A stretch of DNA of 5,528 bases from SAR202 cluster bacterium (GTDB lineage: Bacteria; Chloroflexota; Dehalococcoidia; UBA3495). The translations under genes and the position numbers were made by a program. Under the pieces are notes generated by a model that saw only the letters and a list, made by a program, of their open reading frames with translations, ran no database searches and was not told the DNA's origin. Of the stretch, positions 443 through 5,528 are shown one piece after another (positions within the stretch are counted from its first letter, which is position 1; each line of letters opens with the position of its first letter). The DNA lies in assembly GCA_009392075.1 (NCBI GenBank), contig VFHG01000046.1, forward strand, positions 1-5,528, written 5' to 3'.

Positions 443-2065
443 CTAAAAGACCCCTGGGTCCACGTACTCGCCGTAGACCTCACGCATGGTGTCCAGAATC
501 TCGCCCTCGGTGGCCAGGGCTCCCACTGCCTCAAGGACACCGGGCATCAGGTTTTTGTCGTCTTTGGCGGCCTGTTTTAGAGAAGACAGGGCCTTCTTCA
601 CATCGGCTGAACTGCGCCCGCTGCGGGTCTCGGCGAGCCGTCCCTTCTGCCACTCCTCTTCTTCCGGGTCGAACTGGAACAGTTCCAGTTTCTGGGCGCC
701 CTCTGACTGGTACTGGTTCAGCCCAACCACCACCTGCTCGCCGCTCTCGATGCGGAGTTGGTATTCGTAGGCCGACCGGGCGATCTCCAGTTCGATGTAG
801 CCAGTGTCAATGGCCCGGAGCATGCCCTGTTTCATGGGATAGGCGCCGCCGCCCATGGCTTCGATCTTTGAGATGTATTCCCAGGCGGCTTCTTCGATCC
901 GATCGGTCATGCTTTCAACGAAGTAAGACCCGGCCAGCGGGTCGACCGTGTTGGCCACTCCTGACTCGTGGGCCAGGATCAACTGGGTGGCCAATGACAT
1001 TCGCATGGCCTCTTCAGAAGGAATGTCGAAGGCCTCATCGAAGCCGCTAACGTGCAGCGACTGGGTGCCTCCGAGCACTGCCGCTAACGCCTGCAAGGTG
1101 CCCCGGGCGATGTTGTTCTGCGGGTCTTGCCGCATCAGCGTCGAACCAAGAGTTTGGGTGTGGAACCGCAGCCGCATGGACTCGGGCTGCTGGGCCTTGT
1201 AGCGGTCCTTCATTATTCGGGCCCACATGCGCCGGGCGGCCCGGTACTTGGCCACCTCTTCGAATACGTCGTTGTGGCAGCCGAAGAAAAACGACAGGCG
1301 GGGAGCGAAACTGTCCACCGGCAGTCCCCGCTCCAAGGCCGACTCCACATAGGCCATGCCCTGAGCGATAGTGAAGGCCAGCTCCTGGACGGCGTCCGAG
1401 CCACTTTCCCGGATGTGATATCCGGAGATGGAGATGGTGTACCAGTTGGGCACGTGATTGGTGCAGAACTCCACGATGTCGGTGGTCAGCTTCAGCGAGG
1501 GACGAGGCCCCAAGGCGAAGGTCTTCTGGCCATGGAACTCTTTTAGAGAGTCGTTCTGGACCGTTCCCCGTAGCGATTTCCAATCTACGCCTCGCTTCTC
1601 GGAGACGGACAAGAACATGCCCATCAACACGATCGCCGGGTGGTTGATGGTCAGGGACACGCTGACCTTGTCTAGCGGTATATCCAGGAACAAGTCGTCC
1701 ATGTCGCGGACGGAGTCGATGGCCACGCCCAGACGGCCGACCTCGCCCTCGGCCAGCTCGTGGTCAGAGTCGTAGCCCGTCAGGGTCGGGTGGTCGAAGT
1801 CGGTGCTGATGCCGTTCTGGCCGTGATCCAACAGGAACCGGTATCGCTCATTGGTTGCCTGGGCGGTGCCGAAGCCAGCTATCTGACGCCTGGTCCACAG
1901 CCGCCCCGAGTACATGTTGGGATAGGGGCCGCGAGTGAAGGGAAACTCCCCCGGCTGACCCAAGTCCCTCGCAAAGTCGTTGTTAGCCAGGTCGTCCGGT
2001 GTATAGACCGGCTTCACTTCCAAGCCCGAGAGGCTGCGTTTGGGTTGTTGTTGGTTGTCGGCCAT
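443..2065 (-). CDS. hcmA: B12-dependent acyl-CoA mutase large subunit, 2-hydroxyisobutyryl-CoA mutase type
   Basis: This 540-residue TIM-barrel catalytic subunit of the methylmalonyl-CoA mutase superfamily lacks the C-terminal B12 domain, which the next gene supplies. Family landmarks are FPFTRGPYP (41-49), LRGTVQNDSLKEF (165-177), SISGYHIRE (212-220), FAPRLSFFF (253-261), RLRFHTQT (298-305) and LGGTQSLH (331-338). Aligned by hand to Propionibacterium methylmalonyl-CoA mutase, Tyr89 is Ile62, Ala116 is Asp89 and Arg207 is Gln180, while Gln197, Tyr243 and His244 are kept (Gln170, Tyr216, His217). Ile plus Asp at the first two positions is the published signature of HcmA (Ile90/Asp117), and loss of the carboxylate-binding Arg argues against methylmalonyl-CoA. 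The expected reaction is 2-hydroxyisobutyryl-CoA to 3-hydroxybutyryl-CoA in the cytoplasm. The C-terminal ending, PGVF, also resembles HcmA as I remember it. The ATG start has no good Shine-Dalgarno, but it lies 20 nt after the upstream stop, which suggests coupling. Mutase class is certain; substrate is probable. Confidence 0.85.
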   Translation of the reverse strand: MADNQQQPKRSLSGLEVKPVYTPDDLANNDFARDLGQPGEFPFTRGPYPNMYSGRLWTRRQIAGFGTAQATNERYRFLLDHGQNGISTDFDHPTLTGYDSDHELAEGEVGRLGVAIDSVRDMDDLFLDIPLDKVSVSLTINHPAIVLMGMFLSVSEKRGVDWKSLRGTVQNDSLKEFHGQKTFALGPRPSLKLTTDIVEFCTNHVPNWYTISISGYHIRESGSDAVQELAFTIAQGMAYVESALERGLPVDSFAPRLSFFFGCHNDVFEEVAKYRAARRMWARIMKDRYKAQQPESMRLRFHTQTLGSTLMRQDPQNNIARGTLQALAAVLGGTQSLHVSGFDEAFDIPSEEAMRMSLATQLILAHESGVANTVDPLAGSYFVESMTDRIEEAAWEYISKIEAMGGGAYPMKQGMLRAIDTGYIELEIARSAYEYQLRIESGEQVVVGLNQYQSEGAQKLELFQFDPEEEEWQKGRLAETRSGRSSADVKKALSSLKQAAKDDKNLMPGVLEAVGALATEGEILDTMREVYGEYVDPGVF

Positions 2066-2964: not shown

Positions 2965-3143
2965 GATGAGTTCACTCCTGCCAACGTTTTCTTGATTTAG
3001 CGACGCCGGACATGTGTAATGCCACGCCTGGCAATCGCCCCAATACTAACACATGGGCAAGGGGCATCCGATGTTAACCAACCTTGTCGTTGTGCCCTAA
3101 GTCTGAGAGTAATATTCCGAGTCAGGCAGGATAAGGAATCGAT
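2965..3143. promoter_or_regulatory. Divergent intergenic region with small inverted repeats
   Basis: This 179-nt gap separates the propeller-mutase operon (minus) from the dehydrogenase remnant (plus), so both promoters would have to lie here. Visible elements are AGGAG on the minus strand (2975-2979) for the propeller gene, AAGGA on the plus strand (3133-3137) 6 nt before the ATG of the remnant, and a plus-strand TAATAT (3110-3115) that could be a -10 box but has no well-spaced -35. Two inverted repeats occur: CATGTGT/ACACATG (3011-3017 and 3049-3055) and, inside it, TGCCA-CGCC-TGGCA (3020-3033). They are possible operators, but they are short and could be chance. No convincing minus-strand sigma-70 promoter was found. 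Confidence 0.35.
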
Positions 3144-3707
3144 ATGAATTTCAATGGAGTTAAAACCACGGCAGTGGTCGGAGCTGGGAATATCGGCCAC
3201 GGGATCGCCCTCACGTTGGGCTTGGCCGGTTACCAGGTACGTCTTAATTCCACCAACGATACGAGCCTCCAAAAGGGTATGGATTTCGTCAAGGCAGACC
3301 TGGATAGATTGGTGGGGTTGGATATGACGAAGCCTGACTTCGCCCAGGCAGCCTTGGCCAATATTTCCACCACCACGTCCTTGGAAGGAGCGTCACGAGA
3401 CTGAGATATGGTGATTGAAGCGGTTTACGAGAACGTTGAATTGAAGCAACAGATCTTCCAAGACCTAGACGCCTTCTGTCCGGAACGGACGATACTGGCA
3501 AGCAGCACTTCAATGATAATTTCAAGCCGTTTCGCCGGGGTGACCCAACGCCCGACCGGGTACTAGTGACCACTACACAGGACCGGCTTATGTGTCCCCG
3601 TTGGTCGAGATCGTCTGCACCGAACAGACCTCCGACGAGACGGTGGACATCATGTTTCAGGTCCTCAAAAAATCCGGGAAAAGACCGGATATGTTGGGTT
3701 CGAAAGC
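3144..3707 (+). pseudogene. Decayed 3-hydroxyacyl-CoA dehydrogenase, NAD-binding domain remnant
   Basis: The reading frame starts at a good ATG (AAGGA 6 nt upstream) and encodes a Rossmann domain with GAGNIG at residues 13-18. A TGA at 3402-3404 interrupts it, but homology continues in the same frame as DMVIEAVYENVELKQ and then ILASSTS, both typical of 3-hydroxyacyl-CoA dehydrogenases. A further TAG-TGA pair occurs at 3564-3569. Restoring one C in the run at 3551-3553 and one C at 3570-3571 regenerates RPDRVLVTHYTGPAYVSPLVEIV and the following SDETV...SGKRP, a convincing continuation. Another indel near 3688 is likely. Recognisable homology ends at about 3695, where the convergent amidohydrolase begins, so the C-terminal dimerisation/substrate domain (roughly 100 or more residues) is missing. 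The acidic residue normally ending strand 2 of the NAD site seems to be Ser (RLNSTND). The active enzyme would have oxidised a 3-hydroxyacyl-CoA. The neighbouring genes are intact, so real decay is more likely than poor sequence. Confidence 0.88.
3667..3690 (-). terminator. Probable intrinsic terminator of the amidohydrolase gene
   Basis: Read on the minus strand, a perfect 6-bp inverted repeat (ATCCGG / CCGGAT, arms 3690-3685 and 3677-3672, loop of 7 nt) runs directly into a T tract (3671-3667). It begins 17 nt past the TAA stop of the amidohydrolase (3708-3710). Position and layout fit Rho-independent termination. The stem is short with four G-C pairs, so it may be weak. It lies wholly inside the remnant of the convergent dehydrogenase gene. 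Confidence 0.55.
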
Positions 3708-5249
3708 TTACACCCGGCTATTAAACCCGTAGTGGGGCGTGATTTCCGACTTGCCCCAGTCCTTGTAGAACTCTTCTACAAAAGGCGTCAATCCCTGGGC
3801 CAGTTTCTTGGCCTCAATGGCCCGGCCCTCCATAGGCCGGGCGAACTGTTCTTTGATCTCCCGCAGCACTGCCTCTTTATCCATCTTGATAAAAGTGCCG
3901 TTTTTCACTACTACCTCACCTTGGATCATGACCATGTCGATGTGTGACGCTTTGCCCCGGTACAGAAGCATGTCCACCACGTCTATGCCTGCGTCAGAAT
4001 AAGGATCGGTCAAGGCGTCCAGGTCCAGCAGAACTAGGTCTGCGAAACGGCCCGGTTCCAAGACGCCGATCTTGTCTTGGAGTCCAGTTGGCCGGGCTGC
4101 ATTGGCGGTGGCCAGGCGTAGTGCTTGGTGTGAGTTCAATGCCGGCATGTCCATCCTGGGTTGCCGGTGCAGCTTGGCGGCCAACCTCATCTCTTGGATC
4201 ATGTCGTCGTCGTCGTTGAGGGCGGTGCTGTCGGTGCCTAGGGCAACGTTCACACCCTTGTCCAGCATGGCGTTCACCGGTGCGATGCCGTTCTTCAGGC
4301 GCAGGTTTGAGCTGGGATTATGGCATACCGTGGCGCCGGTCTGGGCCAGGATGTCGATGTCCTGGTCGGTCAGCCAGACTGAATGGGCGCAGGACACTTC
4401 CGGCCCCAGGAAGCTCAGAGTATTCAGGTGCTCGACCGGGGTGTGACCCCAGGTCCGGAGGCCGTACTCCTTCTGGTAGAGGCTTTCTACTAAGTGGATA
4501 TGAATCGCTGCGCCGGTCCGTGTGGCCTCATCCTTGGTCCGCAGCAAGAACTCATCTGAAACCCACTGTACGTTGCTGGGACTGAGCAGCACCGTCACTC
4601 TGGAATCGGAATCGTTCAAATATTTTTGGTGCAGGCCTTGAAAAACCGAGAAATACTCTTCTTCAGATAGGTTAACAGCGGCTAAGAACTGCCGCAGTGA
4701 TCGGGTTAAGTCTCCGGGCAGGCCAGAGATGAACTGCTCGTCGTCCTGGTAGACGACGCGGTTGCGCTCTCGGAAGTAAACCGAAAAAGCGGTCCGCATC
4801 CCGGCGTCGGCGAACCCACGCAACACCTCCGATACATCGTCGGCCAGGCCCGTTGCCGGGGTCTGGGCGTGGTTGTACATGGTGGTGGTAGTGCCGGATT
4901 CGATCATCTGGATGGACGTGAACAAGGTCATCAGGTAATGGTCGTAGGGACGGCGGCCCCATCCGGCCAGTATCCACGTCTCTAAACAATCGTCGATGCA
5001 ACCATTCTGGAAGGTGCTCACACCCCGGCCGTGGTGGTGGGCGTTCACCAGACCTGGCATGACCACATAGCCAGGCCCTCCCAGCTCCTCGTCGGCCTGA
5101 TGGGCGGCTTTGATCTCGTCGTAATCGCCAACCGCCTCGATGACCCCGTCCCGCTGGAACACTGCTCCATCGGTGATTACCCGGCTGGACTGACCGTCAA
5201 CTGCCGCCTCGCAGATGACATACTTGCCACGGATTATCGAGGTACTCAT
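3708..5249 (-). CDS. Amidohydrolase family protein, TRZ/ATZ / SAH-deaminase-like
   Basis: From the preferred start this is a 513-residue metal-dependent hydrolase of the amidohydrolase superfamily. Its landmarks follow the subgroup that contains methylthioadenosine/S-adenosylhomocysteine deaminase and s-triazine hydrolases: HxH in GLVNAHHHG (His71/His73), HIHLVES (His252 metal ligand, Glu255 catalytic), AHSVWLT (His289), CHNPSSNLRLKNG (309-321) and GTDS (Asp340). ATANAARPTGL with GVLEPGRFADLVLLD then leads into the usual small beta-domain. All expected metal and catalytic residues are present, so it should hydrolyse a C-N or C-Cl bond on an amino-substituted ring; the substrate cannot be read. 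It is longer than typical SAH deaminases (about 430-450 residues) because of a middle insertion and a C-terminal tail ending YGFNSRV. The start at 5249 has GAAGG 5 nt upstream; an in-frame ATG at 5264 would add five residues but lacks a ribosome site. It is monocistronic by promoter and terminator. Confidence 0.9.
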   Translation of the reverse strand: MSTSIIRGKYVICEAAVDGQSSRVITDGAVFQRDGVIEAVGDYDEIKAAHQADEELGGPGYVVMPGLVNAHHHGRGVSTFQNGCIDDCLETWILAGWGRRPYDHYLMTLFTSIQMIESGTTTTMYNHAQTPATGLADDVSEVLRGFADAGMRTAFSVYFRERNRVVYQDDEQFISGLPGDLTRSLRQFLAAVNLSEEEYFSVFQGLHQKYLNDSDSRVTVLLSPSNVQWVSDEFLLRTKDEATRTGAAIHIHLVESLYQKEYGLRTWGHTPVEHLNTLSFLGPEVSCAHSVWLTDQDIDILAQTGATVCHNPSSNLRLKNGIAPVNAMLDKGVNVALGTDSTALNDDDDMIQEMRLAAKLHRQPRMDMPALNSHQALRLATANAARPTGLQDKIGVLEPGRFADLVLLDLDALTDPYSDAGIDVVDMLLYRGKASHIDMVMIQGEVVVKNGTFIKMDKEAVLREIKEQFARPMEGRAIEAKKLAQGLTPFVEEFYKDWGKSEITPHYGFNSRV

Positions 5250-5254
5250 GCTTG

Positions 5255-5259
5255 CCTTC
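5255..5259 (-). promoter_or_regulatory. Ribosome binding site choosing the 5249 start
   Basis: On the minus strand GAAGG sits 5 nt before the ATG at 5249-5247. The alternative ATG at 5264-5262 has only TTGGG directly against it, with no proper spacing. The protein then begins MSTSIIRGKY, which fits the usual short beta-strand start of this family. Confidence 0.55.
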
Positions 5260-5265
5260 ACCATC

Positions 5266-5292
5266 CCAATTAACCAGCTACCGCTGAATTGG
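5266..5292 (-). promoter_or_regulatory. Bulged inverted repeat at the predicted transcript start of the amidohydrolase
   Basis: CCAATT (5266-5271) pairs with AATTGG (5287-5292), and inside them CAGC (5275-5278) pairs with GCTG (5283-5286) around a 4-nt loop. The result is a 10-bp stem with one 3-nt bulge. It begins at about +1 of the transcript predicted from the promoter at 5297-5325. It could be a repressor operator or a 5'-leader hairpin; the sequence does not decide between them. Confidence 0.45.
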
Positions 5293-5296
5293 CTGG

Positions 5297-5325
5297 ACTA
5301 TATGGGCCGCCATCTGGGCTGTCAA
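5297..5325 (-). promoter_or_regulatory. Near-consensus sigma-70 promoter for the amidohydrolase
   Basis: On the minus strand a perfect -35 box TTGACA (5325-5320) is followed by a 17-nt spacer and the -10 box TATAGT (5302-5297), which matches five of six consensus bases. Transcription should start near A5290, giving a leader of about 40 nt before the ATG at 5249. Confidence 0.75.
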
Positions 5326-5349
5326 GAAAGACGCGATTCAGGCGCGGCG

Positions 5350-5378
5350 TTGTGTTGGCCGGTGCCGTCGATTAAACT
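5350..5378 (+). promoter_or_regulatory. Possible promoter for the SDR gene
   Basis: TTGTGT (5350-5355) and TAAACT (5373-5378) are separated by 17 nt, with three and four matches to the -35 and -10 consensus. The start point would be near 5385, about 35 nt before the SDR start codon. The match is weak; position and spacing are the main support. Confidence 0.3.
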
Positions 5379-5420
5379 GGCGGGACGCTCAGATGAATCA
5401 AGTAAAGGATGGAGGCACTC

Positions 5421-5528
5421 ATGCCTGATCTAGACGGAAAGGTAGCCTTGATCACCGGCGCTGGCGGCATGCGCGGCGTGGGCCGGGCCACGGTCATGAA
5501 GTTAGCCGGACTAGGCGCAGACATCGCC
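5421..5528 (+). CDS. SDR family oxidoreductase, N-terminus only (cut by window edge)
   Basis: The first 36 codons, in frame to the last base of the window, encode MPDLDGKVALITGAGG and on to GLGADIA. This is the first beta-strand and the NAD(P)-binding turn of a short-chain dehydrogenase/reductase. The glycine motif is a longer variant, TGAGGMRGVGRA (residues 12-23), with two more residues between the first and second glycines than the classical TGxxxGxG; such spacing occurs in a subset of SDRs. A strong GGAGG (5411-5415) lies 5 nt before the ATG. It is divergent from the amidohydrolase, with 171 nt between the two start codons. SDRs reduce or oxidise alcohol/carbonyl groups; the catalytic Ser-Tyr-Lys and substrate region lie outside the window, so the substrate is unknown. 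Confidence 0.85.
   Translation, partial: MPDLDGKVALITGAGGMRGVGRATVMKLAGLGADIA

Follow-up and report, generated by a model that had tools for sequence, protein, structure and literature searches.

A probable 2-hydroxyisobutyryl-CoA mutase encoded by genes named methylmalonyl-CoA mutase in a SAR202 bacterium

The mutase HCM and the ligase HCL are known enzymes that, according to the available text of one report (PMC7176365; see also PMC11599936), have been detected in few microorganisms. The characterised HcmAB, represented by the enzymes of Aquincola tertiaricarbonis (4r3u) and Methylibium petroleiphilum PM1, consists of separate subunits and has an Ile/Asp/Gln site at residues 90, 117 and 208 of the large subunit HcmA. 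In the description of the HcmA structure from 2015, Asp117 is said to bind the substrate hydroxyl and to set the (S)-stereospecificity, and Ile90 reportedly shapes the pocket. In RcmA of Kyrpidia tusciae, Val replaces Asp117, the position at which the protein described below has Asp. The RcmAB pair itself is given in the available part of PMC7176365 as an (R)-preferring 2-hydroxyisobutyryl-CoA mutase, sharing the reaction type proposed here, and an I90V mutant of HcmA is listed in the available part of PMC12025749. The SAR202 group is abundant in the dark ocean, and the accessible sections of PMC5395668 contain the prediction that it oxidises recalcitrant organic matter. In those sections and in the ones of a second SAR202 paper (PMC7506110), methylmalonyl-CoA mutase (MCM) alone is named, and the accessible portion of PMC6544822 mentions the 2-hydroxyisobutyryl-type mutase for sulfate reducers only. 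A search for SAR202 together with 2-hydroxyisobutyr- found no report within the literature searched, which omits most subscription papers.

We analysed a stretch of 5,528 nucleotides from a SAR202 cluster bacterium (contig VFHG01000046.1), hereafter the window, of which the features are listed in Table 1. Two bases separate the end of the large-subunit gene from the small-subunit gene that follows it, and the codon coordinates of the three active-site residues were computed from the large-subunit reading frame.

Table 1. Features of the window and their positions
Feature	Position	Strand	Remark
Mutase large subunit	443-2065	minus	intact ORF, 540 aa; TIGR00641 and PF01642 matches
Small B12-binding subunit, HcmB-like	18-440	minus	140 aa; DGHDRG cobalamin motif at residue 18
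NHL-repeat protein	2086-2964	minus	ends 20 bases upstream of large-subunit gene
Codon of Ile62	1880-1882	minus	HcmA Ile90, MCM Tyr89
Codon of Asp89	1799-1801	minus	HcmA Asp117, MCM Ala116
Codon of Gln180	1526-1528	minus	HcmA Gln208, MCM Arg207
3-Hydroxyacyl-CoA dehydrogenase remnant, broken	about 3096-3696	plus	
Amidohydrolase-family protein, 518 aa	3708-5264	minus	82% identity to L014 neighbour
Start of a reading frame	5421	plus	

The best solved relative of the large subunit is HcmA (4r3u_A), with 525 bits over residues 10-540 as compared with 440 bits for human MCM. After phmmer alignment, Ile62, Asp89 and Gln180 were found to align with the Ile, Asp and Gln of 4r3u_A, the HcmA numbering being checked on HcmA of Methylibium (99.6% identical to the Aquincola 4r3u large subunit), and human MCM has Tyr, Ala and Arg at the three positions. 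Tyr216-His217 is retained. The alignments thus confirm the residue assignments of the first-pass annotation, made from the letters of the window, for the three positions as well as for the Tyr-His pair. This annotation had also offered the 27-residue distance between Ile and Asp, equal to that in HcmA, as a mark of HCM; the argument was rejected, because Tyr89 and Ala116 of MCM are likewise 27 residues apart and the spacing is uninformative. Together with the division into a large and a B12-binding subunit, the window protein has the Ile/Asp/Gln set of HCM; the Tyr89 and the carboxylate-binding Arg207 of MCM are replaced by Ile62 and Gln180.

Hereafter we denote the site types by the residues at these positions (I/D/Q, Y/A/R and F/A/Q). 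Among the best 120 of 8000 scored database proteins, the I/D/Q site and the Tyr-His pair were kept in 120/120, so that the site is not due to chance, and His178-Gly179, which replaces Met-Ala of HcmA in front of the Gln, was present in the same 120/120; the functional names given to these closest proteins are methylmalonyl-CoA mutase or its family. A total of 145 aligned sequences included 48 I/D/Q, 69 Y/A/R and 26 F/A/Q, in addition to one unread residue and a single F/A/R row, the chain of PDB 5req. This chain, which we take to be the Y89F mutant of Propionibacterium shermanii MCM, served as the P. shermanii row and has Phe at residue 89. At 32 pocket positions in P. shermanii numbering, the window protein agrees with HcmA at 26 and with the P. 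shermanii row at 21. The differences from HcmA are Asn50, Leu112, Gly179, Tyr209, Ser258 and Ser340; His178, at a position outside the 32, also differs. With MCM of human and P. shermanii the protein has in common, besides these 21 positions, the Tyr-His pair and, by homology, the B12 chemistry.

An HCL-type ligase gene next to the mutase is known from the genomes of relatives, its place being outside the window, which ends first. A scan of genome contigs retained 80 of 136 relatives, of which 14 loci (L001-L014, from records titled SAR202, Dehalococcoidia or Chloroflexi, except L011, titled merely as a bacterium) are I/D/Q and 66 are not. In L014, from the SAR202 MAG OSU_TB47, the DNA is 97.3% identical to positions 1-2986 of the window and the mutase protein 99% identical, and the gene following the small subunit encodes a 465-aa ligase, of which the best solved match is HCL (6hdw, 521 bits) and the next-best solved family is phenylacetate-CoA ligases (222 bits). 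Compared with ligases encoded on plasmids, the identity is 57.8% for Natrinema zhouii, 56.5% for Halomarina sp. PSR21, 50.0% for Methylibium, 48.4% for Xanthobacter and 47.7% for Agrobacterium deltaense, and then drops to 40.7%. A mutase match lies close to the ligase in 5/5 of these plasmid records; it was read as I/D/Q in three (Natrinema, Methylibium and Xanthobacter), and the I/D/Q protein P0140 of Halomarina, encoded on a contig equal in length to the PSR21 record, is apparently the mutase beside the PSR21 ligase. In Methylibium and Xanthobacter the I/D/Q mutase and the HCL-like ligase share one gene group.

An HCL-like ORF follows the small subunit at the first locus of 18/20 I/D/Q genomes (L001-L014 and L095-L100), each genome being counted once and ligases other than that of L014 being compared only with the L014 and Methylibium ligases. 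In genome G272 the short first locus lacks it, but a wider region shows the HCL-like ORF behind the small-subunit gene, and in G401 (L011) it is located on another contig (82,140 bases), 170 bases from the edge. By the same search, in which the I/D/Q loci were positive, no HCL-like ORF was detected in 91 control loci with other active sites (E 1e-5; 68 Y/A/R, 22 F/A/Q and 1 with an unread residue), of which 66 came from genome contigs (six of these contigs shorter than 6 kb), 2 from plasmids and 23 from the class sample described below (flanks about 1.5 kb).

The SAR202-type order, large-small-HCL, differs from that of Methylibium, which is small-HCL-meaB-large. In 21 loci of the SAR202 type, seven of them short, neither a meaH-like gene (query Methylibium MeaH) was found beside the mutase nor a 2-hydroxyacyl-CoA lyase-like ORF; each of 8 genomes searched encodes a single MeaB above the family cut-off, located outside the mutase loci, and lyase-like TPP proteins are encoded elsewhere in the genomes, with the best identity of 46% in G007 and 39% in G401. 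The gap between large and small genes is about 260-630 bases in L004, L007, L008 and L010, and in G272 the two genes are separated by an open frame of 603 aa (L148, 9863-11671, minus strand), for which the Pfam search gave only a weak helix-turn-helix match.

On the upstream side, the NHL-repeat gene is present in 12/14 of the loci L001-L014. The 3-hydroxyacyl-CoA dehydrogenase remnant corresponds to residues 5-205 of a 336-aa intact relative in L003, the remainder being absent; the match falls into two pieces (69% and 76%) that are read in different frames, the first interrupted by a stop. L003 and L010 carry the gene intact, L001 has it in two frames and the window in broken form, and at the place tested, immediately before the NHL gene, it was not found in seven other loci (L004-L008, L013 and L014); since its state and presence vary among loci, it is not a fixed part of the operon. 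The amidohydrolase has no evident part in a mutase pathway. DNA identity to L014 falls from 97.3% before position 2986 to 76.6% at 3754-5527, with an unmatched stretch between, which may reflect an exchange of the operon segment among SAR202 strains.

The identity of the window protein is 48.1% to HcmA, 54.4% to the Natrinema mutase and 42.9% to human MCM. Several F/A/Q and Y/A/R proteins reach 50-55% (51.9-54.7% for L018, L102, L015 and L038), and the F/A/Q mutase L101, at 58%, stands above HcmA. For a tree guarded against convergence through the motif columns, we selected 61 rows from the 145 and masked the motif windows 58-66, 84-95, 174-186 and 210-221 (query numbering), leaving 492 columns; the rows held no Kyrpidia RcmA, PCM or ECM sequences. 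Three clades were recovered in the masked tree, SAR202 I/D/Q (100/99), haloarchaeal I/D/Q (100/99) and the HcmA rows (100/100). SAR202 and the haloarchaea grouped as sister clades in both trees, with 77/72 after masking and 99/99 with all columns. After masking, a weakly supported branch (68/23) set all I/D/Q rows apart from the others, and HcmA joined them with 90/78 with all columns. A position outside the HCM clade, which the first-pass annotation had named as evidence against its reading, was accordingly not obtained, but the support for the joint I/D/Q clade is modest. Constraining SAR202 with the Y/A/R rows in the masked alignment cost 35 log units and was only marginally rejected (p-AU 0.055), a cost partly due to the constraint also forcing the Y/A/R rows into one clade, which they do not form in the free tree; placing SAR202 with HcmA without the haloarchaea was not rejected (p 0.48). 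That the I/D/Q site arose once would be the best-fitting account of these sequences. Since the identity to HcmA is only 48%, an F/A/Q mutase stands at 58% and the grouping with haloarchaea is firmer, the SAR202 branch is, on these comparisons, a new, deeply separated and so far little noticed lineage within a known kind of enzyme.

In both trees the I/D/Q clade is placed among F/A/Q rows, as would be expected if the window protein were an ICM-like isobutyryl-CoA mutase. The IcmA pair is Phe80 and Gln198. Gln180 and Lys181 are indeed shared with the F/A/Q rows compared at the pocket, and L101 is the F/A/Q enzyme of 58% identity noted above; however, the F/A/Q rows have Phe and Ala where the window protein has Ile62 and Asp89, the Asp being additional to the IcmA pair, and HCL was found in 0/22 of the F/A/Q control loci. 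We consider an isobutyryl-CoA mutase very unlikely.

The association of I/D/Q mutase and HCL was examined in a sample of 393 genomes from the same class, with thresholds of E 1e-100 for the mutase superfamily and E 1e-90 for HCL, an identity line of 60% and at most three mutase candidates scored per genome. A superfamily mutase is present in 277/393 genomes, and one at least 60% identical to the window protein in 7/393, all 7 being I/D/Q. HCL was detected in 8/393, including all 7; in the eighth, G144, it is located 486 bases from the contig end, with the expected mutase side cut off. The naive hypergeometric chance of this 7-within-8 overlap, 3e-14, is an indication only, because the sampled genomes are related. 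The weaker matches in the sample, read residue by residue at 23 loci (L101-L123), were F/A/Q or Y/A/R. In addition, five I/D/Q genomes, matched by record title, carry a second mutase locus of the canonical Y/A/R type (I/D/Q and Y/A/R loci L002/L047, L005/L041, L007/L045, L008/L038 and L009/L046), so that propionate metabolism there would not need the I/D/Q enzyme.

These paralogues bear on the annotated function, a true MCM with odd but neutral active-site changes. The names of database relatives, the TIGR00641 and PF01642 matches and an identity above 50% to some Y/A/R enzymes speak for this reading; the replacement of both the carboxylate-binding Arg and the Tyr, the separate canonical MCM in five genomes and the HCL neighbour in relatives speak against it, as does the score of 578 bits against the MCM equivalog cut-off of 876, though the window protein lacks the fused C-terminal domain, its B12 domain being a separate subunit. 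We regard a true MCM as extremely improbable. Judged from sequence comparison, the window genes most likely encode a B12 enzyme different from the methylmalonyl-CoA mutase by which databases name them.

Taking together the active-site residues, the best solved relative (525 against 440 bits), the HCL neighbour, the co-occurrence and the separate MCM, we conclude that the window pair is quite likely a 2-hydroxyisobutyryl-CoA mutase paired with an HCL-type ligase. The same lines of evidence support the first-pass proposal of a hydroxyacyl-CoA mutase mislabelled by routine annotation. In the proposed scheme, the ligase encoded downstream in relatives would activate a tertiary 2-hydroxy acid in its free form, 2-hydroxyisobutyrate being the simplest candidate, the mutase would convert 2-hydroxyisobutyryl-CoA to 3-hydroxybutyryl-CoA via an adenosyl radical, and the product would then enter beta-oxidation. 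Ile62 would give space where MCM has Tyr, and Asp89 would bind the hydroxyl group and should, the Asp being conserved, select the (S)-3-hydroxy isomer. With Gln180 in place of the carboxylate-binding Arg, methylmalonyl-CoA should be a poor substrate. The presence of a free-acid ligase suggests that the reaction runs in the catabolic direction. The residues, the neighbours and the co-occurrence are observed, whereas we infer substrate, stereochemistry and direction from the characterised HcmAB. As to the origin of the acid, the tert-butyl compounds put forward in the first-pass annotation are speculative, and we find it likelier that tertiary hydroxy acids have a natural source.

An acyl-CoA dehydrogenase gene follows HCL in 9/14 of the loci L001-L014, without an obvious place in the 2-hydroxyisobutyrate scheme. 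The compound used in nature may be a tertiary 2-hydroxy acid larger than 2-hydroxyisobutyrate. An HCM-type enzyme might act mainly on another tertiary or quaternary acyl-CoA, such as 2-hydroxy-2-methylbutyryl-CoA, pivalyl-CoA or a tertiary 2-hydroxyacyl-CoA of greater length, and accept 2-hydroxyisobutyryl-CoA as a secondary substrate, a reading that overlaps with the main one and to which we give a rather low probability. It is favoured by the lineage-specific changes on the pocket side (His178-Gly179, in all of the 120 closest proteins listed, and Ser340), by the depth and separateness of the SAR202 branch, by the 50% identity between the L014 and Methylibium ligases and by the dehydrogenase gene, which 2-hydroxyisobutyrate alone leaves unexplained; against it, the three main specificity residues are those of HcmA, and an Asp is expected for a hydroxylated substrate.

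A related I/D/Q cluster outside the SAR202 type is found on the plasmid of Natrinema zhouii (L082), of which the mutase shares a DHPTL motif with the window protein. In one row at positions 2605-9067 this plasmid carries 2-hydroxyacyl-CoA lyase, HCL-like ligase, I/D/Q mutase, B12 subunit and MeaB, the best solved matches being 7pt1 for the lyase (426 bits) and 6hdw for the ligase (446 bits); from these matches it apparently holds a complete archaeal gene set for 2-hydroxyisobutyrate. The lyase and meaB distinguish this cluster from the SAR202-type loci, where none was found in the 21 noted above. The mutase-ligase gene group of Methylibium PM1 also includes a TPP enzyme (L081, 10493-12253) that matches the Natrinema lyase with 421 bits. 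The haloarchaeal I/D/Q cluster is not the concern of PMC11599936 in its available text. In P0152 and P0153, two I/D/Q proteins of the haloarchaeal type, the catalytic His is replaced by Gln (SGYQ), and P0152 in addition carries Gly instead of Arg283; their chemistry may be altered. We tentatively suggest, as an idea we hold doubtful, that the hydroxyacyl-CoA mutases of SAR202 and the haloarchaea form an ancient subclass apart from the others, equipped with a ligase of its own, within which the SAR202 branch would be tuned by His178-Gly179 and Ser340 to tertiary 2-hydroxy acids larger than 2-hydroxyisobutyrate, derived from branched recalcitrant dissolved organic matter.

The pair of ligase and mutase provides a concrete, testable enzyme step for the oxidation of recalcitrant matter by SAR202, and part of the "methylmalonyl-CoA mutase" counts in marine metagenomes probably represents a different reaction. 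The natural source of 2-hydroxyisobutyrate is raised as unidentified in the available part of PMC7176365, and the SAR202 pair bears on this question. With the haloarchaeal clusters, the trait would reach into the Archaea as well. If the proposal of an ancient subclass is true, SAR202 would possess a marine B12-dependent route that opens tertiary-carbon compounds beyond the reach of ordinary beta-oxidation.
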